A DNA stretch of 64,000 nucleotides from assembly GCF_028290495.1 (NCBI RefSeq), contig NZ_JAQGJT010000026.1, positions 17,898 to 81,897 on the forward strand. The letters run 5' to 3'. The stretch is from Tardiphaga sp. GTDB lineage: Bacteria; Pseudomonadota; Alphaproteobacteria; Rhizobiales; Xanthobacteraceae. Made by a program: the position numbers and the translations under genes. Shown one piece after another: positions 5,725 through 24,277 of the stretch; position 1 is the stretch's first letter; every line of letters begins with the position of its first letter. The notes below the pieces were generated by a model, which made no database searches, was not told the DNA's origin, and was given only the letters and a program-made list of their open reading frames with translations.

Positions 5725-8700
5725 GTGTCCACACCGCCTCAAATTGCACCGCCCGCAGCGACGGGTAATGCCGGCCCGCAATTCGAGGCTAGCGTTGGTG
5801 CGTTCTATCTTCTCTCACTTCTCGCAGGGAGTGAGCCGCGCGGGCTACCGGGCGCGACGATCCGAACTGTCGAATTCCAGCGTCGCGGTTCAGGCCACCC
5901 CCTTGATGACGTCATCATAAAAGCTGTGAACGCTGACGGCTCAGCAGCAGTACTTGAGATTCAAGCCAAGCGGACGCTGACTTTCATCGCGTCCGACGAT
6001 GAATTCAAAGATGTCGTTTCGCAGATGTGGGAGGCTGCGCAAAATCCTGAGTTCGGGAAGATCCGGTATGAACTAGCCGCGGCCATTGCAAGGACCACGA
6101 CGCGGGTCGAATTGGCTTGCCAGGAAGTCTTGCATTGGGCGCGGCAGCTACCCGATTCAGCGACTTTTAAAGCGCATATCGACCGCGAGAAATTTTCGTC
6201 GAAAGACATGCGCGACTTCGTCAAGGTGTTCAGCGCCAATCTTGCCCTGGCGGGCGCGCCGACAGACGATGAGACGGTTTGGCAGCTGCTGCGCAGCTTC
6301 CAGATCCTACCGTTCGATTTCGAATCGCCCGGTTCGGATTACGCGCATCGCGCGCGTGAACGAGCGCGCTTGGTGCTGCTTAACCACCAGGCCGAACGTG
6401 CGGCCGACCTTTGGCCGGTCCTGATCCACCACGCTGGCGTGAGCGCTAGAGCAGGCGGCGCGTTAGACAGGCCATCGTTAGCCACCTCACTCAACACGCA
6501 ACATGGATATCAATTTGATCAGCGTGCGGATTTGCGGGCCGTGGACAACCGCCTGGCGGAAGCGGCTGAACACGCACTAGCCGAAATCAAAGATCAGGTC
6601 GGCGGGGTGAGGCTCGCCCGTACCGAACTGGTCGACGGGGTTTATGCCGCGCTCGAACAGAACCGCGTGGTGCATCTCGTGGGCGAGGCCGGCACGGGCA
6701 AATCGTCGATCCTGAAGCATGTCGCACGTCGCGTTCAGCTGGAAGGCCGCATCATTATCCTGCGCAATGGCCGGATCATCCCGGGCGGCTGGCTAACGAT
6801 GGCACACACCATTGGGTGTCCGGTATCGCGCGACGAGCTCTTCAACGAGTTGGGCTGCGGCGGCGGAGCCACGCTCTTTATCGACAACATCGACCAGATC
6901 GACGACCCGGGCGATTGGGCAACCGTCTCGGATCTTCTCATAAGCGTTGCACGAAATCCGGGCTGGCGCGCCGTAGTTACGGGCGGCCTTGGAAATGATG
7001 AATGGAAAAGCAAAGTCTCGGAACAGGTAAGGACTGTCGGTATTGCTGCGCTTGATGTGGGCGCCATCACGGACGACGAAGTCGTCGTTCTTTCCGAGGA
7101 AAATCACGCGCTCGCGATCATACTAAGCGCCGATCATCCCGCGAAAGGCATCGCCCGGAATCTGTTTTATCTGTCGCGCATGATTGAACTTGGCGCGGGC
7201 CTGGCCGGCGCAGCGACCAGCATTGCAAGCGAAGTTAATTTGGCCCGGCTGTGGTGGCGCTACGGCGGTGGCCGCGCGGAGGATGCGGACAGGTTTTTCC
7301 GGTTAAAAGTTTTGCGAATGATTGGCGCCCAAGTGATTGCGAACCCTGGCCGTACGGTGTTCAACGTCGATGAATTCGAGTCGTCGACCGTTGTCGCGCT
7401 CCTGAGATTCGACAGTCTGCAGGAAGACATTAAGGGCGCAACGGTCAGTTACCGGCACGACGTGCTGCGCGATTGGACCGTCGGTTTCATGCTGCATGAA
7501 AATCGAGCCCTGCTAAGCGCGGTGCCTATGGAAGGGCCGATTGCAGTTGGCCTGGCCCGCTGCCTCGAAATAGCGGCGCGGCTTGCGCTTGACACTGACG
7601 CCACCGGCGCCACTTGGCTGACCTTGCTTGCCACGGTCGAAAGGCCGGGCGTTCATGGAAGTTGGAAGCGCCCGGTTCTGCTTGCACTGCCTCGCTCTGA
7701 ACAGGCTTTAGCGCTGTTCATGGGCCTGAAGTCCGTATTGCTCGAATCCGGAGGCCGCCGTCTGAGCGAGATCATCAGGCTGATGATCGCGGTCGAGTCG
7801 ACTCCGTTGGTCAAAGTCATCGCGCGTATCCAGCCTGCGGTCGCGATCCCGCCGGGTGTCGAAGACCTGATCGTGCCGAAGGGGATGGGCTGGACCTGGC
7901 TCGTGCTGTGGCTTGTTGGAGAAGCGGATGCATTGCCTTCTCAAGTCATTCCGGACGTCGTCAAGGTGTTTCAGGCGTGGCTGATTTCGACGCAGAGCCA
8001 ATCTCCGGAAATAAATGCGCAAATCGTGGGTCTGCTGTTCGGCTGGCTGGCGTTGATCGAAGATGAAATGGTGCCCCGCTCGTACAAGCACATCAGCGAA
8101 GCGCCGCCGCCTCTGCGAATTCCACATCTGACAGACGTGCGCGACGAAATTCGCATGAACGTGTTCAGTTTCGCGCGCCTAAATCCGGCTGCCGCTGCAG
8201 GCTATCTCTCGGCTCTTGATCCAGACGCCGTCCGGCATCGCGAGGCGCAAGCCATCCTGCGCGCTCCGGGATCGCTGGCGCAAGCTGCACCCACCGAACT
8301 AGCGAATTTTGTGCTGGGAACACTCATCGAGAAAGACGACCCGGACGACTGGTATGGCGGGCGGCGCAACCGGTATGGACCGTTTGGCGCGAACGACCAC
8401 CTGTTTACGCAGGCTTCGCCGTCCCAAGGCCCGTTCCTCGATCTTCTCGAGCACGCGCCTGCTGACGGGCTCAGGCTAATCCGTGCGCTCGTCGAGCACG
8501 CCACCCGTTGGTGGCGGGAGCAGTATATTGAGGCGCGACGGCCTTTCCCCAGGGTCACCATCCCTTTTCCCGACGGATCGAAGTCGTTCGAGGGTGATCA
8601 ATCGATCTATCATTGGGCTCGCAGCGTCGCGCCTTCGACGATCACCGCATCGGCGTTGATGGCGCTCGAAGCCTGGGGACATCAGCAGATCGAGGCAGGA

Positions 8701-10944
8701 CGTCCTTTCGCGGATGTCTTGCACGATGTCCTTGGCCCGGATGGATCAAGCATCGCTTTAGTATCCGTCGCGGTTGATCTCGTGCTGTCGCATTGGCCGA
8801 AGTCACGCGACGCGGCATGGCCGATTGTGGCCACGCCGGAGATACTAGTATTTGATAACGCGCGGCACCTGCGGGACCTGACAGGCGTTGATCGGATGAG
8901 TTTGTTCGAACAAGAGGCGAGCACGGCGCGCGTGAAGCGCGCTGATCTTGACGCCAAACCGTCAAGGCGCGCCCAACTGACCGATACGATTGGCCAGTAC
9001 CTGTTCCGTGGAGAGCCAAAACAACTGGAAGAGCTTCGTAACGCGCTGGAGCGCGCCAGGAACGAGATTAAGCAGAAGCCAATTGAGAACGAAGACCCGA
9101 TCAACGGGTTGGGCGCCACGGCTGATCGCGCGCAGCGCATGACAATTCCTGAACATTGGCCTGTGATCAAAGTGAGACTGCAAGACGGCTCAGAGGCTGA
9201 AGTTCGCCAGTTTCAGCTTGATCCCGAGGAGCTCCGGCTGAAAGAGATCAAGGGCGCTGATGCGGACGTTAATGTGGAACATCTCAGCCTGCGCATGAAG
9301 GTGAAGGATGCTTTGTTTGGGCGTAACAAGTCGACGCCCGCCATTGTGCGCGAAGGCATTGTCTGGGCAAAGACGCAGGTCGCCGATGATGCTGGACCAT
9401 CTGAAGAGGACGATGAAAGCGACAGCGACTTTAGCAAAGAATGGGATCGCCGGGTTGTGGTAATGGCTGCAGCGCTTGCTGCGCGTGACTATGAGTCGTC
9501 AGATCGCGCCGATGTCATGGTGTGGGTAAGGTCGGTACTTCAAACGGCCTCATCCGTAAAAGATAAGGAATATCGCGGAAACGACCAGATCGAACATAAC
9601 GCCACGGCAATCGCCGTCCTGGGTTTAGTTGCGCTATATCTAAGGAATAGAGATATCGCGACGCGCGATATGCTCATGCGGCTTGCCTGCGACGAGCACC
9701 CCGCCGTGGAACGGGCACTCGGCCAACACTTTTTTGATCTCGCGGGTGTCGATGAGCGGCTGCCTTGCGCGCTGGTTCGCATCTTCATGACGAACACCGT
9801 TCATCCGCATCGAACGGACAGCGACGATGAAGTCGGGGTGAATCAGCGCAATCGCCGGGAAAGGATCGAGGCGGCGATTGCTGCGGAGCAGCGGTGGCTT
9901 GATGGCGCAGAACGTGAACCCACTTGGCCCGACTTGCCGGACTGGTGGTCGCGACCGCGTCGCGGACTCCGGCTCGGAGACTGGACGCCGGATGAGAATG
10001 ACGACCTTACCGAAAGCAAACCCGAAGATTACGTGGACGAACAAGCGCTGGGGATGATGATAAGCCATCTCGATCGCTTCACCACGGGCGTGTTGCCTCC
10101 ATGGATTGTCGCGCTGTGTCAGCACATGATGCAGTGGACATGCGAAGCCAATGAACCGCACGGGGCCGGGGATCACGATCAGGATCACCGCCCATCAACC
10201 TGGAATCTGCACTTTTTCGAGTTCGCCGGGATATTGTCTGTCGCGCTGCCCCACCGCGATGTCGTGACCATGTTTTTGGCCCCGATCATGGAATTCAGGG
10301 ACGAGTCTTTCTATGACGCCATGGCGCCGTTCGTCCGGGGTTTTGATCGCGCAACGCTGGCAATAGACACCAAAACGCCTGAGAACCCGGCGCAAGTCCG
10401 TCGGTTATTGGCTAACCGCATCAAACAGGGTTGGAATTTTCGGCGCTATGAAAGAGAGAAGACATTCTCAAGCGAGCGCCATGCCGGCGACGCGTTAACT
10501 GCCATCTTCTACCAAGCTTCGTCTTTCGTCAATAACGGCAGGCCAAGCACTCCAACCAACTGGGGCGGGTTGGATGCTACTATTTCGACTTTGACGGAGC
10601 TCGTCACCGGAGCCGGATCCTCCGGCTATCTCGCGGTCTTATTCTTGAATTTAATCAGCTCGTCACCTCGCGCCGCGCTGCTTCTTTATGTCGTGAAGGC
10701 AATGACGGCTTGGTGCGCGTCCTACGGCGCCGATACCAATTTTTGGTCTGAAAAAGACATCGGCGGCCGGACTTGCAGCTGGCTTGCTCGCACGTTCGAC
10801 GCCGACCCGCAAGCGACAGCGGCGCTTCCCGACGTTTCTGAGGATATCCTCAGGTGCCTTGATATTCTCGTCAGGGCTGGAGTCACGCAGGCAGCCGAGA
10901 TCGAGGAGCGATTTACCGGGATAGCCAGCAGCATGTCCGCATAG
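5725..10944 (+). CDS. Giant nuclease-STAND NTPase, putative anti-phage sensor
   Basis: 1739 residues. At the N-terminus (about 14-110) GPQFEASVGAFYLLSLL, LDDVI (Asp61/62) and LEIQAKR (Glu78, Gln80, Lys82) match the order of a PD-(D/E)xK restriction-like fold of the Cap4/DUF4297 or Mrr kind, with a QxK catalytic motif. A P-loop NTPase follows: Walker A GEAGTGKSS near residue 320 and Walker B TLFIDNID near 384. The remaining roughly 1,100 residues are mostly helical, without recognisable enzymatic motifs; an acidic stretch (EEDDESDSD) sits near residue 1230. The effector, STAND NTPase, long sensor order is that of Avs-type defence proteins, which recognise phage proteins and activate a nuclease. 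That is analogy, not proof. The annotated start is GTG 5725 with a poor ribosome binding site (GGA 13 nt upstream); no in-frame ATG lies nearby. It is cargo of the mobile element. Confidence 0.85.
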   Translation: MSTPPQIAPPAATGNAGPQFEASVGAFYLLSLLAGSEPRGLPGATIRTVEFQRRGSGHPLDDVIIKAVNADGSAAVLEIQAKRTLTFIASDDEFKDVVSQMWEAAQNPEFGKIRYELAAAIARTTTRVELACQEVLHWARQLPDSATFKAHIDREKFSSKDMRDFVKVFSANLALAGAPTDDETVWQLLRSFQILPFDFESPGSDYAHRARERARLVLLNHQAERAADLWPVLIHHAGVSARAGGALDRPSLATSLNTQHGYQFDQRADLRAVDNRLAEAAEHALAEIKDQVGGVRLARTELVDGVYAALEQNRVVHLVGEAGTGKSSILKHVARRVQLEGRIIILRNGRIIPGGWLTMAHTIGCPVSRDELFNELGCGGGATLFIDNIDQIDDPGDWATVSDLLISVARNPGWRAVVTGGLGNDEWKSKVSEQVRTVGIAALDVGAITDDEVVVLSEENHALAIILSADHPAKGIARNLFYLSRMIELGAGLAGAATSIASEVNLARLWWRYGGGRAEDADRFFRLKVLRMIGAQVIANPGRTVFNVDEFESSTVVALLRFDSLQEDIKGATVSYRHDVLRDWTVGFMLHENRALLSAVPMEGPIAVGLARCLEIAARLALDTDATGATWLTLLATVERPGVHGSWKRPVLLALPRSEQALALFMGLKSVLLESGGRRLSEIIRLMIAVESTPLVKVIARIQPAVAIPPGVEDLIVPKGMGWTWLVLWLVGEADALPSQVIPDVVKVFQAWLISTQSQSPEINAQIVGLLFGWLALIEDEMVPRSYKHISEAPPPLRIPHLTDVRDEIRMNVFSFARLNPAAAAGYLSALDPDAVRHREAQAILRAPGSLAQAAPTELANFVLGTLIEKDDPDDWYGGRRNRYGPFGANDHLFTQASPSQGPFLDLLEHAPADGLRLIRALVEHATRWWREQYIEARRPFPRVTIPFPDGSKSFEGDQSIYHWARSVAPSTITASALMALEAWGHQQIEAGRPFADVLHDVLGPDGSSIALVSVAVDLVLSHWPKSRDAAWPIVATPEILVFDNARHLRDLTGVDRMSLFEQEASTARVKRADLDAKPSRRAQLTDTIGQYLFRGEPKQLEELRNALERARNEIKQKPIENEDPINGLGATADRAQRMTIPEHWPVIKVRLQDGSEAEVRQFQLDPEELRLKEIKGADADVNVEHLSLRMKVKDALFGRNKSTPAIVREGIVWAKTQVADDAGPSEEDDESDSDFSKEWDRRVVVMAAALAARDYESSDRADVMVWVRSVLQTASSVKDKEYRGNDQIEHNATAIAVLGLVALYLRNRDIATRDMLMRLACDEHPAVERALGQHFFDLAGVDERLPCALVRIFMTNTVHPHRTDSDDEVGVNQRNRRERIEAAIAAEQRWLDGAEREPTWPDLPDWWSRPRRGLRLGDWTPDENDDLTESKPEDYVDEQALGMMISHLDRFTTGVLPPWIVALCQHMMQWTCEANEPHGAGDHDQDHRPSTWNLHFFEFAGILSVALPHRDVVTMFLAPIMEFRDESFYDAMAPFVRGFDRATLAIDTKTPENPAQVRRLLANRIKQGWNFRRYEREKTFSSERHAGDALTAIFYQASSFVNNGRPSTPTNWGGLDATISTLTELVTGAGSSGYLAVLFLNLISSSPRAALLLYVVKAMTAWCASYGADTNFWSEKDIGGRTCSWLARTFDADPQATAALPDVSEDILRCLDILVRAGVTQAAEIEERFTGIASSMSA

Positions 10945-11185: not shown

Positions 11186-12871
11186 CTAGAATCGGGTCCA
11201 GGCGGCCGCAACAAACCCTTCGCCTTTCACACTCCATCTGGTTGCCGGCCAGTCAAGTCGGTGGGCGGCACCGGCGTAGTGCACGATCGCCCTGATGTAT
11301 TCCCTGTTAGTATTGGGCTCGAACAACCCGAAATCGCGAGCGAACTGGGCGGCGGTGACAATGGGCTTGGTTTCGTCCTTTGTTATGAATTTCCGCTTAT
11401 CGCCCTGCCCAGGATTTTTGTTCGGCGCTTGCCAACGGATCGCACGCGACCCGAGAGTATTTGAGGCATCGGCGGCGCCGTCGCCGGCGGTAAGCCGGCT
11501 ATAGATCTTGATCTGAAAAAGATCAGAAAGGAGGACCGATTCGTCCTGGTATAGCAGCCGCAATTGCTCCATGGACTGAACGGCGGCGACGCAGATCAAG
11601 CCTTTCTCCCTCGCGACGGAAAGCGCCGTGGCCAGACCCTCAATTTTGCCTAGAGAAAAGAACTCGTCCAGAATGAGGGTGGTACGGCGAGATTGGTCGA
11701 TCGCCATGGATGCGTCGGAAACCCCCTTGCAGATACGGCGCAGCACGCCGCCGCAGACCGACGTCGACATCGCCTCGAAGTTTGGTGAAGTCTGAACGAT
11801 GACGATTTTGGGGCCGGCATAGTTTGTGGCAAGCCACCTTTTGATGGAGAAATGCTTTTCCGGCGGCAGGCCCGCCCAAGCGTAAGCCATTGGGCGCAGG
11901 GTCGTAAGTGCCGCGGACAGCAACGTTGACATGATGCTTTGGACGGTCTTGTCGGCGCCGTCGGCACCGCTGGCAAGCAAGGGGCTGGCGCTGAGATTAA
12001 TGTTCGCGATCTTCAGGCGGAGATCTTCCGGGCTACTTAGAAGCTCCAAAAGGAGGTCGAGCGGTCCCCACTTCTGGCCTTTTTCGACCGAGATGGCATT
12101 GATAGTGTCGGTCAAGATGAGGCGAGCGGAATCCGACCAGAACGGTTGGTCAGAAGACGGGATGACATCGCGGGCAAACTCTGCGGCTGCAGCAGGACCG
12201 TCCAAATCTGCCCCGATGTCCCAAGCCCAGCCGTCCCGATGGGACGGCGAAATCAGAACCACATCGCGAAGGTCGAAGCTCCGGGTCACGTCGCCCTTGT
12301 TGCAGTGGATGACCGTGCGGTCGCCCCGTTGGATCGTCTGGGTGGCGATCGCCCGCACGATATTGGATTTACCGTGGCCGGAGGCGCCAACCACCAAGAG
12401 ATTTCGGCTTTCCAGTGTAAACGGCAGGTTGAGATAGGGGGCCAACCAGAAACCTTTGGTCGCCGCTCCTGCTTCTCTCCTGAAGCTCCATTGCAGTTTC
12501 ATGCGCGCATCTTCGTCGTAGTAGACGTGGGGGTCGGCATCGTCGACCGTCTGGAACGGCTCCGTCCACGGCGTCCGATCTTTCGCCTCGAGGCTCGTCA
12601 TGTAGCCGGCGACAATGCTGATGCCGAGCGCAACGAGCAAAATCGGCCGGTGCGCGACGATGTAGGTCCAGAGCTTGGAACCATCAGTCAGAGCGGCAAG
12701 TGCGACCATCCACTCGGACCAAACATAATGGTCGCCGATGGATCCCGCGACCAGCAGCACGACGATGACCAGCGGAAGTATGATTCCGGCAACGAGGAGC
12801 CCGATAGTAGTGGCCACGAACGGGTGCGGACGCGGCTTGAGGCCGACTTGCAGATATGTGAAAAGACCCAT
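11186..12871 (-). CDS. traD: Conjugative coupling protein, VirD4/TraD family
   Basis: 561 residues. Two membrane segments lie near the N-terminus (about 20-45 and 70-90), followed by a RecA-like motor with Walker A GASGHGKSN near residue 158 and Walker B TTLILDEFF near 390. The segment DSARLILTDTI and the C-terminal FARDFGLFEPN fit TraD/TraG-type type IV coupling proteins that bind DNA. Such proteins hand the relaxase-DNA complex to a type IV secretion channel at the inner membrane. It is the last gene of a minus-strand set (ParA-like, membrane protein, traD) with a 43-bp gap before it. The relaxase partner is at 19057-21699. No VirB/Trb channel genes are in the window, so the channel is encoded further left or supplied by a helper. 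Confidence 0.88.
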   Translation of the reverse strand: MGLFTYLQVGLKPRPHPFVATTIGLLVAGIILPLVIVVLLVAGSIGDHYVWSEWMVALAALTDGSKLWTYIVAHRPILLVALGISIVAGYMTSLEAKDRTPWTEPFQTVDDADPHVYYDEDARMKLQWSFRREAGAATKGFWLAPYLNLPFTLESRNLLVVGASGHGKSNIVRAIATQTIQRGDRTVIHCNKGDVTRSFDLRDVVLISPSHRDGWAWDIGADLDGPAAAAEFARDVIPSSDQPFWSDSARLILTDTINAISVEKGQKWGPLDLLLELLSSPEDLRLKIANINLSASPLLASGADGADKTVQSIMSTLLSAALTTLRPMAYAWAGLPPEKHFSIKRWLATNYAGPKIVIVQTSPNFEAMSTSVCGGVLRRICKGVSDASMAIDQSRRTTLILDEFFSLGKIEGLATALSVAREKGLICVAAVQSMEQLRLLYQDESVLLSDLFQIKIYSRLTAGDGAADASNTLGSRAIRWQAPNKNPGQGDKRKFITKDETKPIVTAAQFARDFGLFEPNTNREYIRAIVHYAGAAHRLDWPATRWSVKGEGFVAAAWTRF

Positions 12872-12914: not shown

Positions 12915-13448
12915 TCAGGCCATCAGCCGGAGAACGATGATGGCGCCGATGGTTAAGATCACCGCGGCGAGGAGCCCACGCGTGGTCGCCGCTGCCACGT
13001 AGGACGAGCGATAACGCTGCTGAGCTTGCCAGTTCTTCACGGCGACGACGGGTGCCTTTGCGCTTATCGACAAAGCCGCTTTCCACGGCAGCTTCATTTT
13101 GGTGCGCACCTTCGCGACAACGGCAGTAGCCTTTGTTGGGAGCGCGTGGCGCCCGGCCGGTGCCGCGACCTTCGCAACACCTGGGATGGCCCTGGTGGCC
13201 GCTGCCACGCCTACCTGTTGTTTGACGCGCGCCTTGAGCCGCTTGAAAAAGTATCGCGCGCCATCGTCTCCCCATTTGCGAAGGATCTTCGGATCGGCGG
13301 CTTTTGCCGAATCCAGCGTAAGCTCCACAAGGGCATTGGCCTCCCGCTTGATCTCCTCGGTACCTTCCTCAATGATGGTCTTAAAGGGAGGGATGGAGGC
13401 CCAAGCAGGCTTGGGAGCCGGCTCGGGATTGTTGATTGCGTCCGGCAT
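12915..13448 (-). CDS. Small tail-anchored membrane protein in the transfer operon
   Basis: 177 residues. The body is basic and Ala/Lys-rich with amphipathic helices (TEEIKREANALVEL, YFFKRLKARVKQQVG). The last 22 residues form a single hydrophobic segment (LLAAVILTIGAIIVLRLMA), so the protein is probably tail-anchored in the inner membrane facing the cytoplasm. ATG 13448 overlaps the stop of the ParA-like gene as TGATG, which implies translational coupling; a GTG one codon earlier is possible. Placed between a ParA-like ATPase and the coupling protein, it may link element positioning or DNA processing to the transfer machine. No family recognised. Confidence 0.7.
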   Translation of the reverse strand: MPDAINNPEPAPKPAWASIPPFKTIIEEGTEEIKREANALVELTLDSAKAADPKILRKWGDDGARYFFKRLKARVKQQVGVAAATRAIPGVAKVAAPAGRHALPTKATAVVAKVRTKMKLPWKAALSISAKAPVVAVKNWQAQQRYRSSYVAAATTRGLLAAVILTIGAIIVLRLMA

Positions 13449-14269
13449 CACGCACCACCCTTCGGCAGGTTGATGAGCTGCGACAGGGCGCCGTGCATCG
13501 ACCTGAAGAAGATCGTGACCGCACGCCGGGCGAGTTTGACGTCGCCGACCGGCTTCTTCAGGAGCTTGCTGCCCTCCGCAGGATCCATCGCCAGCGCTTT
13601 GAGGAACCGCAAACCGGCATTCTCATACGGCTCCCAAAATTCGGAGATGATCCCCGGCATCACCATCCGCGTGACGTGGTCGAGCAGCGGCTTCAGTTCC
13701 TTTGCGTACTGCTGTCCGGCGATACTGGCAGCAGACAGTTGGTCAAGCGGCTTACGTTCGAGCAGGTTCTCGACCAGGACCAGATGTGCGCTCGGAACCG
13801 CCTTCCGGAAGCGGCGGATCGTCTCGGCTGCGGATCCGATGGCGTCGGGTTCGGCCTGCACAAGCACGAACACCAGCATCGGCAGCTTCCACGTACCGAG
13901 ATCTTCATCGATTTCGACGTCGGTGAGATAGTTCGCGGTGTTTTCCACTTCGTCAGCGCCGATATCAAACAGCACCGAATTGCCGGCGGGTACCGCGGCT
14001 TGACATGCCGTGTAGAACGGGGTGAACGCCGTGCGCACCAGAGCCGGATCGTTCATGATCAGATCCGGATTGGGCCGCAGATCCACGACCCGCGCGCCGA
14101 GCATCTTGCTGAGCCGCTTTTTGTCGTCGGCCTGAAACACGCTGTAAGGATAACCGTTCAGCGTCAGCAGATCGGCGATGGTCGTCATCAAGTGGGTCTT
14201 GCCGGTACCGCCCTTTTTGGAAGCGGTAATCAATGCAACGGGCAGGCTCAGGGGGAACGACTTCGTCAT
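13448..14269 (-). CDS. ParA/MinD-like ATPase of the mobile element
   Basis: 273 residues with the deviant Walker A KKGGTGKTH near residue 19, the hallmark of ParA/MinD ATPases. The later NSVLFDIGADE has the place of a Walker B/A' region, and LVLVQAEPDAIGSAAETIRR fits the downstream Rossmann-like part. Such proteins segregate plasmids, or position conjugation or secretion components. There is no ParB gene beside it, so a role in transfer or element maintenance is as likely as segregation. AGAGG lies 8 nt before ATG 14269. A conserved 18-bp element shared with the 16332-17039 gene lies 66 bp upstream and probably marks its promoter. It starts a three-gene unit with the tail-anchored protein and traD. 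Confidence 0.85.
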   Translation of the reverse strand: MTKSFPLSLPVALITASKKGGTGKTHLMTTIADLLTLNGYPYSVFQADDKKRLSKMLGARVVDLRPNPDLIMNDPALVRTAFTPFYTACQAAVPAGNSVLFDIGADEVENTANYLTDVEIDEDLGTWKLPMLVFVLVQAEPDAIGSAAETIRRFRKAVPSAHLVLVENLLERKPLDQLSAASIAGQQYAKELKPLLDHVTRMVMPGIISEFWEPYENAGLRFLKALAMDPAEGSKLLKKPVGDVKLARRAVTIFFRSMHGALSQLINLPKGGA

Positions 14270-18807: not shown

Positions 18808-19056
18808 GTCATTCCTATGAACGCGGTTAATTGATTGAAAATCCAGACGGGGGCTTCATCGGCCTTGCTGCATTAGTAGTCCGACATCCCTGCCGTCTGA
18901 CTGAAGGCTATTCCTCTAATTTGAATGAATCGCGTTTAAGGCGATCAGAGCCCGCGGCGCATCCCATGCGGAATGCAGCAAGCAAGTATTGCGGACTTCC
19001 ATTCGCCGCCCCCCTGACAATGCTGTGATTTGTAGAGGACCTCAATGGAGGTTCTC
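18808..19056. other. Divergent intergenic region, candidate oriT
   Basis: MobF relaxases usually act at an origin of transfer next to their own gene. This 249-bp gap upstream of the relaxase carries short inverted repeats (ATCGC/GCGAT around 18928-18942, CGCAT/ATGCG around 18958-18970). There is no nic sequence I can match to a known MobF site. It also holds both divergent promoters. Confidence 0.25.
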
Positions 19057-21699
19057 ATGGTTGCGACTCTCGCGGCTGGCACGACGGCGCGGTACTACAC
19101 CAAGCAGGCCGAGTACTATCTTGGAGGCGGTGAGCCTGCGTGTCGTTGGATTTCGGCGACTAACAATTTCGATGCAGTTCATGGCGCTACCGTCAACGCG
19201 GACGCGTTCGAGCGCTTGCACGACGGTCTTGACCAATCTGGCCAACCGTTGCTGAGCAGCGCCGGCTCTACCGGTGCAGCCGGTAATCGTGTTGCGGGCA
19301 TCGACCTCACGTTGTCGGCACCGAAGTCCGTCTCAATCGCCTATGCACTAGCTAACCGTAAGACGCGGAGCCAGATTGAACAGGCTCAGCAGCAGGCCTG
19401 CGAGGCGACGATCGCGTTTCTGGACCGGCATGCCGCGTTTGGACGACGTGGCAAGAATGGTCTCCATTTGGAAGCCGTGTCGCTGACGGTCGCCTCATTC
19501 CAGCAAGGAGAATCACGACCTGTCGTGCACGAAAACGGCGCGGTCTTCGCCGATCCCAATTTGCATAATCATCAGGTCATTCTGAACTGCGCGATCCGCA
19601 ATGACGGCACGATTGGTGCTTTGGATGCGCGCCAATTGTTCGCCTTCAAGATGGCTGCCGGCGCGGCCTATCATTTGGCGCTCGCTTCAAATCTTCAGCG
19701 TCTCGGCTTTGCGATCGGCGAAATCGGTAAAAACGGCATTTTCGAAATCGTCGATGAACGTGGTGGTCAGGAGGCGGAGCGCGGCGTCGAGCTCCGACGC
19801 TTCATGTCAGCTCGTCGCCAGGAAATTGAGCAAGCTTTGGCTGACGAGGGGCTGACGACGGCAAGCGCACCGGCGTTGGCTGCCGCCGTCGCGCTTGGTA
19901 CCCGGACCTCGAAGCAAGAAGAACGTCCCGGCGATCGCTTCGCGACGTGGGCTGAACAGGCGGCGCCCTTCGTCGATGTCGGGCGATATGTCTCGGACCT
20001 GCAGACGTATCGGGAGCTTGCCCTGGCTGAGCGCGAGGCGGTCATCGTCCAGCGCATGCTGGCATTGCCCAGCCAGCTGACAGAAACCGAAAGTCTTTTC
20101 GAGCAACGGCATCTGTTGGCGGCGATCGGAACGGCGCTGGTGGGAACGGGCGCCGGAGCGGATCGCATCGATTTAGAGGCGAAGCGCTTTATCGACGCCG
20201 GTCGTGTAGTCCAGCTCGGGCGCGACAAGCTGGGTCAGCCGATTTACTCAACGCCCGAACAGATCGCACTTGAACGCGAGCTGCTCGCGCTCACCGAACG
20301 TGTTCTCGGTCGCCGCCGCTCAGCCCCTGATGCCGCTCGCGTTGCGGCATTGTGCCGTGTCCGAGGGTTGACCGACGAGCAGACCAACGCTGCTCTTGCT
20401 GCAACGACTAACGCGTCCTTGGCGGTGTGTGAGGGCGCACCAGGTGCTGGCAAGAGCACGCTGATCGCAGCAGTCGCCTCAGCGTATCTCGAGCTCCCCG
20501 GAACGCGGCTGGTGGGAACGGCAGCCGCCTGGAATATCAGCAATCAGTTTTCTGCGCTCGGCATCGAATCGAAGGCCACAGACGCCTGGATCGCGACGGC
20601 AAAGGCGGGCGGCAAATTTCTAGATCGCAATTCCGTTCTGCTGATCGAGGAAGCAGGTTTGTTGTCGTCCAGCCAAATGTTTTCGGTGCTTTCAGAGGTC
20701 GAAAAGGCCGGCGCAAAGGCGATTCTCATCGGCGATCGGCAGCAGCTCCAAGCGGTTGGGTCCGGTAGCGGACTTATGATCGTCGCCAGTTTGGCGCATG
20801 CCACGCGCGTCGATGCGATTGTGCGTCAGCACGATGTCTGGGCGCGCGAGGCTGTTACCGATTTCACCAATGGCCGGGCGATCGAAGCCCTCAAAGCCTA
20901 CGATGAACGCGACTTGCTGACATTGGCCGCCGGAGAAAAAGCGGCGATCACTGCCTTGGTCGACGCTTGGCAGGAAACCCAGGCCGTCGTCTCCAATCCC
21001 GCGGCGCTGCTGATTGCCAAGACGAATGCGCAGGTGAACGCCATCAATGCGGAGGTTCGCGCCCGCCTGAAAGCGTCGAAGCTCATCCGAGGTCCGGAAC
21101 TGGCGGTGAACGCTGTTTCACGATCCGGAAATGCCCAGACGCTGCATTTCGCGATGGGTGACCGGGTCCGGTTTTCGCTGCGCCACGATGAACTCGGCGT
21201 CATTAACGGCACGATGGCGACGGTGACGCACATCGACAACACTGACGCGGTCGATCCCACCATGCATGTCGTCATTGGTGAGCGGTTGGCGCACTTCAAA
21301 CTCTCGGAGATTGCGGATGAGCTCGGCCGCGCGCGCCTGGGCCATGCTTATGCCACAACCATTTACGGTTGCCAGGGCGCCACGACCGAACACGCCTTTG
21401 TCCTGCTGAGCCCATCCATGAACCGCTCCGATATCGTCGTGGCATCGTCCCGGGCGCGCCAGCGGACCAAGCTGTTTCTGGACACTAAAGCGTGCGACGC
21501 GCAGCTCCGATTGGATCTGTCGCTTTCGGAACGCCGTGGCGCGCTCATTGAGCCAGAGCGGCGCCTGGAGTGGCTGGCTGCTCGGCTGAGCCGGTTGCAC
21601 GTGAAGACCTGCACGCTGGATCTCACAGTTGAGCTGGCCTCGCGCTCGCAGGCTTTGACCCGCCAGCTTGACCGGTCGGCGGGGTATGGCCGTGACTAA
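19057..21699 (+). CDS. MobF conjugative relaxase-helicase (TrwC/TraI type)
   Basis: 880 residues from ATG 19057, chosen over ATG 19045 because GGAGG lies 5 nt before it and the family starts MVATLAAG. The relaxase domain covers about 1-300: AEYYLGGGEP, DLTLSAPKSVSIAYAL, and the three-histidine motif at PNLHNHQVILNCA, preceded by an upstream His in VHENGAVF. The early paired tyrosines (RYYTKQAEYY) supply the nucleophile. An SF1 helicase follows, with Walker A GAPGAGKST near 470 and a later LLIEEAGLLSS and ILIGDRQQLQAVGSG. It ends with GHAYATTIYGCQGAT (motif V/VI). It nicks oriT, stays covalently bound and unwinds the strand for transfer with the coupling protein at 11186-12871. Confidence 0.95.
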   Translation: MVATLAAGTTARYYTKQAEYYLGGGEPACRWISATNNFDAVHGATVNADAFERLHDGLDQSGQPLLSSAGSTGAAGNRVAGIDLTLSAPKSVSIAYALANRKTRSQIEQAQQQACEATIAFLDRHAAFGRRGKNGLHLEAVSLTVASFQQGESRPVVHENGAVFADPNLHNHQVILNCAIRNDGTIGALDARQLFAFKMAAGAAYHLALASNLQRLGFAIGEIGKNGIFEIVDERGGQEAERGVELRRFMSARRQEIEQALADEGLTTASAPALAAAVALGTRTSKQEERPGDRFATWAEQAAPFVDVGRYVSDLQTYRELALAEREAVIVQRMLALPSQLTETESLFEQRHLLAAIGTALVGTGAGADRIDLEAKRFIDAGRVVQLGRDKLGQPIYSTPEQIALERELLALTERVLGRRRSAPDAARVAALCRVRGLTDEQTNAALAATTNASLAVCEGAPGAGKSTLIAAVASAYLELPGTRLVGTAAAWNISNQFSALGIESKATDAWIATAKAGGKFLDRNSVLLIEEAGLLSSSQMFSVLSEVEKAGAKAILIGDRQQLQAVGSGSGLMIVASLAHATRVDAIVRQHDVWAREAVTDFTNGRAIEALKAYDERDLLTLAAGEKAAITALVDAWQETQAVVSNPAALLIAKTNAQVNAINAEVRARLKASKLIRGPELAVNAVSRSGNAQTLHFAMGDRVRFSLRHDELGVINGTMATVTHIDNTDAVDPTMHVVIGERLAHFKLSEIADELGRARLGHAYATTIYGCQGATTEHAFVLLSPSMNRSDIVVASSRARQRTKLFLDTKACDAQLRLDLSLSERRGALIEPERRLEWLAARLSRLHVKTCTLDLTVELASRSQALTRQLDRSAGYGRD

Positions 21700-22375: not shown

Positions 22376-24277
22376 ATGGCACGCAAGAATCTCCAGGCGG
22401 CTGACGTCGAACTCGCTGTAGCTGCACCAAAGCCCCGTAATGTTCTGGTGTACAGCCGCGTCTCAACTTTGGCCCAGAGCCAGAATATGCTTTCGAGCTC
22501 GGACCAAATTTCCCAAATTTTGGGGCGATGTAAGCGTGACGGGGATAACGTTGTCGGCGTGTTCCGGGACGAGGGCGAAACGGCTACCAACATGAGACGG
22601 AGCGGCTTCGAGACCATGATTGCGCGTGCGACCGATGGGACTCGAACGATCGACGCAATTCTCGTGTTCTCTTTTTCCCGTGCGTTCCGCAATCAGGTCG
22701 AGCAGGAATTGACGGTGCAGACGCTGCGCAAGCATCGCGTCGAGTTGATCTCGTTCGCCGAACCCCTGACCAAAGATGATACTGGAGACATGTTCCGAAA
22801 GTTCATCGGAATCGTCAACGAATATCAATCCAAGGAAACATCGAGGGCAACCAGCCGCACGATGCTGGCCAATGCGAGGTTGGGCTATTCCAATGGCGGC
22901 AACATCCCGTTCGGATACAAGTCCGTCGACTCCGACATCATCGGCAACAAACAGAAGAAGCGGCTCGCCATCGAACCGGTTGAAGCGGAGGTGGTGCGGC
23001 TCGCCTTCGATCTCGCCAGAAACGGCGATGGCACCAGCGGACCGCTCGGCACAAAAAAGATCGCCTTATGGCTGAACGAGCGCGGCTACCGCTCCCGCAA
23101 GGGATCGCTGTTCGGCACCGGCACTGTTCACGAAATCCTGACCCGCGAGGCCTATACCGGCACCCGGCGCTTCAACGAATACGACCGCGGAGCTGGTGAG
23201 CGAAAGAAAGAGGCCGACATCGTCGAATACGATGTGCCTGAGATCATCAACCGAGCAGCTTTCGACGAGGTCCAGGCTTTGTTGGTCTCCCGACAACCCC
23301 GACTCAAGGGTCCACGGTTGGCCTCGGCGCCCTCGTTGCTTGGCGGTCTTGTTCGATGTGACTGCAAAACGTCCTGTGCGCTGACCACGGCGACCGGCAC
23401 ATCCCGCACCGGCAAGGTCCACACCTATTACAAATGCTGCCAGGCCATCAAACAGGGCCGCCACAAACAGGATAACGGCGCTTGCTGCGCAAACCGCAAG
23501 ATCGCCCGTCCGATCATCGAAAAGCTGGTCGTCGAGGCCCTGGTCGATCAGTTGCTCCAGCCTGAGCGGGTCACCGCCATCTTGATGACCCTCAAGGCCC
23601 GCAGAGACGGGCGCCAGGCGTCCGCTGATCAGCGCCTGACGGATCTGGCAAGGCAGGTTGCCGACACTGGGGAGCGGCTATCGCGGCTTTACGGGTCGAT
23701 CGAGGCTGGCACCATCGACGGGACCGACCCGGCTCTGAAAGATCGCGTGGCTGCGCTCAAGTCGGCCCGCGACAGCGCTTTGGAAGCCCTGGATTACGCA
23801 AAACGGTCCAGCGCCCTCCCGATCGAGATCGACCCCGTCGCAATCGACCGATTTGCCCGCCTGATGCGCGAACAGCTTATCTCGGGAGATGTGGCAGCCC
23901 GGAAGGCCTATCTGAGCGCCGTAGTCGACGCGATCGTCGTTTCCGACAACACCATCCGCATTATCGGGTCGAATGAAAACATTCGGGCCACCCTGGGTCC
24001 GAATGGCCAGCCGACGCCCGTGGTTCGTAAGTCTGTTCAGGAATGGTGCCCCTGGCCGGAATCGAACCAGCACTCCTTGCGGAACTCGATTTTGAGTCGA
24101 GCGCGTCTACCAATTCCGCCACAGGGGCCATCGCGCCGCCGCCAAGGCAGCGGTGCGAAGCGGGCGGAATATAGCGGGCGTTCCGTGCGGGTCAACCGGC
24201 ACGTGCCCGGCCATACACCCCAGTGTGATCGCATCCGCCTCGACAGGCTTTGGCGACCGGGATACGAGGCAGGCTGA
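22376..24277 (+). CDS. Large serine recombinase, element integrase
   Basis: 633 residues. The resolvase-type catalytic domain starts VLVYSRVSTLAQSQ, with the nucleophile Ser30, and continues DAILVFSFSRAFRN. The recombinase domain holds NGGNIPFGYKSV and GTVHEILTREAYTGTRR. A zinc-ribbon follows (VRCDCKTSC ... YKCCQ ... CCANRK, four or more cysteines), then a coiled coil (about 410-480). From about residue 556 the frame crosses the tRNA-Leu gene in antisense (WCPWPESNQHSLRNS) and only stops at 24277 in host DNA. The natural C-terminus in the excised element must differ. Large serine integrases usually cross short identical dinucleotide cores; use of a tRNA 3' end is less common. It integrates and, with a helper factor, excises the element. 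Confidence 0.93.
   Translation: MARKNLQAADVELAVAAPKPRNVLVYSRVSTLAQSQNMLSSSDQISQILGRCKRDGDNVVGVFRDEGETATNMRRSGFETMIARATDGTRTIDAILVFSFSRAFRNQVEQELTVQTLRKHRVELISFAEPLTKDDTGDMFRKFIGIVNEYQSKETSRATSRTMLANARLGYSNGGNIPFGYKSVDSDIIGNKQKKRLAIEPVEAEVVRLAFDLARNGDGTSGPLGTKKIALWLNERGYRSRKGSLFGTGTVHEILTREAYTGTRRFNEYDRGAGERKKEADIVEYDVPEIINRAAFDEVQALLVSRQPRLKGPRLASAPSLLGGLVRCDCKTSCALTTATGTSRTGKVHTYYKCCQAIKQGRHKQDNGACCANRKIARPIIEKLVVEALVDQLLQPERVTAILMTLKARRDGRQASADQRLTDLARQVADTGERLSRLYGSIEAGTIDGTDPALKDRVAALKSARDSALEALDYAKRSSALPIEIDPVAIDRFARLMREQLISGDVAARKAYLSAVVDAIVVSDNTIRIIGSNENIRATLGPNGQPTPVVRKSVQEWCPWPESNQHSLRNSILSRARLPIPPQGPSRRRQGSGAKRAEYSGRSVRVNRHVPGHTPQCDRIRLDRLWRPGYEAG
24030..24060. other. Probable right attachment junction of the element
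   Basis: The integrase gene runs up to and into the 3' end of tRNA-Leu, while core chromosomal genes begin immediately beyond the tRNA 5' end. The junction should therefore fall at or near the tRNA 3' end. The partner copy of the core is not in the window, so the exact crossover cannot be fixed. Confidence 0.5.
24044..24128 (-). tRNA. tRNA-Leu (anticodon CAA)
   Basis: On the minus strand the sequence folds into a class II tRNA: acceptor GCCCCTG pairing with CAGGGGC, D-arm with GGAATTGGTAGAC, anticodon stem CTCGA/TCGAG with loop CTCAAAA (anticodon CAA), a short variable arm and the T-arm GGTTCGATTCC. The discriminator is A and the 3' CCA is encoded (24044-24046). It forms the right border of the integrated element, which abuts its 3' end. 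The gene is complete. Confidence 0.95.

Follow-up and report, generated by a model that had tools for sequence, protein, structure and literature searches.

Avs1-Avs4 are reported to recognize the terminase, the portal or another phage protein and then to cleave phage and host DNA (PMC12931631). Here we describe a gene at positions 5725..10944 (forward strand) of a 64,000-nucleotide stretch of DNA from Tardiphaga sp. (contig NZ_JAQGJT010000026.1; this whole stretch is called the window below), which encodes a 1739-aa Avs4-related protein consisting of a predicted nuclease, a STAND nucleoside triphosphatase (NTPase) and a sensor. It shares with Avs4 (AVAST type 4; EcAvs4, PDB 8dgf, NCBIfam model NF041815) the NTPase, an HD...W motif and the helical sensor, which are homologous in sequence and in predicted fold; likewise, the E. 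coli copy of Avs4 examined lies on a plasmid, with an integrase gene nearby. It differs from Avs4 in its nuclease domain of ~262 aa, which is without sequence match to the N-terminus of EcAvs4 (whose nuclease we take to be Mrr-like), and in that its family forms a separate branch of the tree. We consider it quite probable that this divergent Avs4-related protein works as a single-gene anti-phage alarm with a Cap4-type nuclease in front. The sensor, of predicted Avs4 fold, would bind a packaging protein of the phage, for which the portal is the most likely candidate; assembly would then be driven by the STAND NTPase, and the predicted Cap4-type nuclease would cut phage and host DNA, stopping the infection. 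DNA cleavage, oligomerization and cell death or arrest are proposed here by homology with Avs1-Avs4.

Engine and sensor are homologous to those of Avs4

The protein has the layout of AVAST/Avs proteins, i.e., an N-terminal effector, a STAND NTPase with intact Walker motifs and a C-terminal helical sensor in one chain. The Avs-like order of nuclease, P-loop NTPase and helical region had already been proposed in a reading made from the DNA letters without database searches (hereafter, the sequence-only reading), and all three parts were recovered. The NTPase occupies residues 291-500 (6595..7224), with the Walker A motif GEAGTGKS at residues 320-327 (6682..6705) and the Walker B region at residues 382-391 (6868..6897); all parts of the gene are given on the forward strand. 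Gly320, Gly323, Gly325 and Lys326 of Walker A are invariant in a 36-row alignment of the query with 35 relatives chosen from 120 listed matches, as well as in 15/15 remote rows. Furthermore, Lys326 is kept in all 130 rows of at least 1650 aa (query included; 26 shorter ones of the 156 rows and the database copy P0002 were left out of this count). Asp387 of Walker B is identical in 15/15 of the remote, divergent rows, EcAvs4 among them, and so are His578, Asp579 and Trp584 of the domain following the NTPase (residues 501-600, 7225..7524), which form the HD...W motif common to EcAvs4 (RHDVLRDW, residues 577-584).

Residues 601-1739 (7525..10941) represent a helical sensor with predicted Avs4 fold. 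Its best-conserved block, residues 881-1060 (8365..8904), is the part that the Avs4 models match best (NF041815 at 891-1099, the PADLOC Avs4 model at 873-1099). NF041815 was the best NCBIfam match of the whole protein (E 4.8e-13, 47.3 bits, in three stretches), and two relatives matched it with E 6.3e-28 (L043, identical to P0122 from Thalassospira) and E 1.5e-11 (L046). The PADLOC Avs4 model matched the query (E 1.2e-6) and four of the five relatives tested, not L042. When the 36-row profile was searched against the PDB, 8dgf_A (Avs4) came first with a whole-chain E of 1.7e-7 in three collinear stretches (285-343, 640-778 and 882-1058). An hhalign comparison with EcAvs4 gave E 2.9e-8 over 691 columns, and a nine-member profile containing no Avs4 matched 929 columns of EcAvs4, in the NTPase and the sensor (E 4.5e-19), and 1321 columns of a relative from Haliscomenobacter (E 5e-27); the hhalign controls, five shuffled and one reversed EcAvs4, all gave nothing (E 0.33-0.85). 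In structure searches, Avs4 ranked first for both halves of the model in both programs, and the sensor model has the Avs4 fold end to end. The sequence-only reading had regarded the C-terminal 1,100 residues as a sensor of uncharacterized type that differs from the characterized Avs groups; the 929-column alignment and the predicted fold contradict both statements. Note that single-protein searches of Pfam and PDB returned almost only P-loop matches; it took profiles, or the models of PADLOC and NCBIfam, to bring out the Avs4 link. Avs3 (8dgc) was neither among the best 50 matches of the sensor half (VIA-align) nor in the profile search, an absence that excludes nothing.

The protein search revealed 165 relatives at E ≤0.001 among 7987 scored candidates (120 of them listed), and many of these at least 165 relatives match over the full length with 48-90% identity, among the matches listed. 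This family therefore has the engine and sensor of a characterized phage detector, under names that, where shown, are mostly "hypothetical protein", "ATP-binding protein" or transporter ATPase. A search of 299 genomes with the PADLOC Avs4 model gave matches in five, those in G526, G377 and G408 being located at family members. When more Avs4 sequences were sought in the class of G356, one of 78 genomes contained a match, the one already known.

The N-terminal domain is a predicted Cap4-type nuclease

Residues 1-262 (5725..6510) form a predicted Cap4/DUF4297-type PD-(D/E)xK nuclease domain, as had been proposed from the sequence for an N-terminus with Asp62, Gln80 and Lys82. The predicted fold of residues 12-262, which sits in a structure model of mean predicted local distance difference test score (pLDDT) 87, resembles the solved nucleases HerA-DUF (9c1m), Cap4 (6wam), LmuA (9hr5) and Hachiman (8zue) in a structure search. 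The PD-(D/E)xK core of this fold carries the D...QxK residues, which are presumably the catalytic residues of Cap4/DUF4297 nucleases. Asp61, Asp62, Gln80 and Lys82 (5905..5970) are invariant in 36/36 rows of the alignment and in all of the 21 N-terminal domains chosen by hand (L005, L039-L042 and L049 left out), down to 20% identity. In the 130 rows of at least 1650 aa, Lys82 and Asp62 are each found in 128 and Gln80 in 125. In contrast to Cap4/DUF4297-type nucleases, whose known partners we take to be SAVED, HerA, LmuB and HamB, the domain is fused here to a STAND sensor.

The open reading frame begins with GTG and is free of internal stops, and the coordinates, the start and the intact frame all agree with the single complete 1739-residue gene of the sequence-only reading. 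The long start is backed by relatives of ~1730-1780 aa (48-90% identity) and by the consensus of the 35 chosen relatives, which begins near residue 1. The database copy of the same protein (P0002, 1672 aa) begins at residue 68 and therefore lacks Asp61 and Asp62. Two further database records of the family (P0106 and P0107) likewise lack these positions, and in all three records the start has probably been called too late. The family goes unlabelled by the curated Avs4 model.

A 560-aa protein from Agrobacterium tumefaciens pAt (L065:6385-9671) possesses the same nuclease domain (40% identity) with another C-terminal part. Its gene directly follows one with the annotation trypsin-like serine protease.

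A separate branch next to Avs4

By wider tests the protein belongs with Avs4, as its NTPase and sensor are homologous to and collinear with those of EcAvs4 and the Avs4 sensor fold is predicted over the full length. By strict tests it does not: its NF041815 score is 47.3 bits vs the curated cut-off of 1500 bits, and hhalign of the 21 N-termini against residues 1-192 and 1-250 of EcAvs4, a comparison of sequences only, gave no match (probability 0.1). For these reasons the protein is Avs4-related, not Avs4. It falls below the curated cut-off and has a different effector, and we therefore place it in a branch next to Avs4 that carries no label, not in a new Avs type without relation to the known ones. 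The undescribed group suggested by the sequence-only reading thus holds with respect to the cut-off and the effector, but not as an unrelated new type.

In a quick tree (43 rows gathered; P0148 dropped, as the Walker A pattern was not found in it, and L041 and L065 left out), the query branch comprises 18 rows with 100% support and is separate from EcAvs4. As the deepest forks have 70-73% support, we claim only the separateness of this branch from EcAvs4. The model NF041814, hoped to cover Avs1-Avs3, is the Avs5 model (two weak matches in 200 genomes), and the tree therefore contains no Avs1, Avs2 or Avs3 sequences.

Besides the missed cut-off and these deepest forks, several observations weigh against an Avs4-related nuclease-sensor protein active against phages. 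The three 8dgf_A stretches are individually not significant (0.17, 1.3 and 6.6), the sensor has only ~13% identity to Avs4, and the PADLOC Avs4 model gave no match in the Tardiphaga genome itself in the 299-genome search. The PADLOC family PDC-M54A matches the query better than Avs4 does (2.8e-9 vs 1.2e-6) and is also the better match for L046, L038 and L047, whereas Avs4 wins for L043. The remote member L042 (L042:7027-12492, in G095), outside the 21 rows, matches neither of the two PADLOC models and has lost Gln80 and Lys82, both being replaced; its effector is possibly inactive or different. Pfam DUF4297/Cap4 matches none of the 21 N-terminal domains (E up to 1), a difference from Cap4/DUF4297 nucleases, and no solved nuclease was matched by sequence when the nuclease profile was compared with the PDB. 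The nuclease assignment therefore rests on fold and motif. Finally, PADLOC found no match among the seven neighbors in the window, and neither phage-resistance nor cleavage data were found for any member of the family.

PDC-M54A is a candidate family, and its first 640 positions are matched by segments of the N-terminal 640 residues in the query and four relatives (residues 127-418 in the query, up to residue 634 in a relative); no match beyond approximately residue 640 was reported. The term PDC-M54 was not found in the open-licence literature searched. In the titles and abstract starts of that literature, no description of a Cap4-type nuclease combined with an Avs4-type engine and sensor was found either, although an earlier description is possible.

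What triggers the protein

The only solved structure that is clear of the background is that of Avs4 with the portal, which makes the portal the first candidate. By homology, we give slightly better than even chances to the portal alone being the ligand. However, with a sensor identity of only ~13%, a similar fold is not enough to assign the ligand, and the same machine may have another trigger, recognizing the large terminase or some non-portal protein of the phage. This alternative, although we think it rather unlikely, is in line with the low conservation of residues 1061-1739, the least conserved part of the sensor over the 15 remote rows (0.18-0.20), and with the use of terminase, portal and another phage protein by the known Avs groups (PMC12931631).

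The gene could also protect its island from rival plasmids or mobile DNA of other kinds, instead of from phages. Indeed, it sits among coupling-protein, relaxase and recombinase genes, and relatives were found in 26 of 72,556 plasmid records, eight of which have a match spanning 80% or more of the query. But engine and sensor correspond to those of a phage-protein sensor, and plasmids are not known to encode a portal or terminase; an island guard thus appears improbable. Large STAND ATPases also act as regulators, and the protein might accordingly be a housekeeping STAND ATPase without a role in defense. Against this, the spread is patchy: alignments of >300 residues were found in 6/248 genomes of the taxonomic family and 9/398 of the phylum (both counts include the own genome, with two candidates scored for each genome; the raw tallies, 18 and 14, also contain short matches, mostly to the P-loop). 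Within the genus, a long match was found in the own genome only, among 18 genomes (a 63-residue N-terminal match is present in G140). Furthermore, the nuclease motif is intact, and a transposase, integrase or recombinase gene lies within 7-9 kb in six of nine annotated plasmid loci with the full-length gene; we therefore regard a housekeeping role as very improbable. Named toxin-antitoxin, restriction or abortive-infection genes are present in two of these nine loci. If the anti-phage alarm is the true function, Avs4-type sensing extends to soil bacteria, among them Bradyrhizobium, Rhizobium and Sinorhizobium, and the question whether portals of rhizobial phages trigger the protein becomes directly testable.

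Possible exchange of effectors on Avs4-type sensors

On plasmid pHALHY01 of Haliscomenobacter hydrossis (L067:2208-8211), an Avs4-type engine and sensor are fused to a trypsin-like domain. This Trypsin_2 domain takes the position of the nuclease (E 7.2e-6, 27.2 bits, just below the curated cut-off of 27.6), and the preceding gene encodes a metallo-beta-lactamase (E 8.3e-5, just above the cut-off). The arrangement is similar to the gated pair of nuclease and protease that has been described for AVAST and Hachiman (PMC12799240), here on an Avs4-type sensor. In a weaker relative (P0155), a phosphorylase-superfamily domain stands ahead of the NTPase. Portal sensing may be a widespread exchangeable module, in which the Avs4-type engine and sensor have been combined with three or more killing devices that are unrelated to one another: a nuclease that we take to be Mrr-like in E. 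coli, a predicted Cap4-type nuclease in the large proteobacterial branch, and, in Haliscomenobacter, a trypsin-like protease whose partner gene encodes a metallo-beta-lactamase. For this proposal taken as a whole, we see the chances as evenly balanced. If it is true, receptors with different ways of killing all watch for the same conserved component of the phage.

Genomic context

The gene lies in a mobile element, as the sequence-only reading had assumed. The same island contains genes for a TraD/TrwB-like coupling protein (11186..12871, reverse strand; PF10412, 2e-43), a ParA-like ATPase (13448..14269, reverse strand; PF01656, 7.1e-5, below the Pfam cut-off), a TrwC-type relaxase (19045..21699, forward strand; PF08751, 2.9e-55) and a large serine recombinase (22376..24277, forward strand; PF00239 and PF07508), as well as tRNA-Leu(CAA) (24044..24128, reverse strand). 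The G+C content is 0.52-0.62 to the left of tRNA-Leu, compared with 0.62-0.67 on its right as far as 30 kb; the region is likely an island inserted at tRNA-Leu, with the tRNA as its right end. The recombinase frame passes through the tRNA-Leu gene, which is on the opposite strand, so that the host side of the insertion probably supplies the final part of the frame. To locate the left end of the island, the window, the first 19 kb of the contig and the own genome were searched for a further tRNA-Leu 3' end, but only the tRNA itself was found; the left end was therefore not placed.

A fixed partner gene was rejected, as no neighbor family is common to more than 4 of 28 loci (26 of the query family and two Avs4-type loci); the protein therefore probably acts without one. 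The two largest neighbor families occur at four loci each, one of them adjoining the near relatives L039, L040, L041 and L044, and the other counting an annotated ABC-transporter ATPase among its members. Two mutually related large proteins (1554 and 1370 aa; L063:13326-17990 and L004:2365-6477) are encoded near two family members. Farther left on this contig, outside the window, a Pfam scan revealed Tc toxin A-type domains in one gene (L051:5005-14253) and RHS repeats in a gene beside it.
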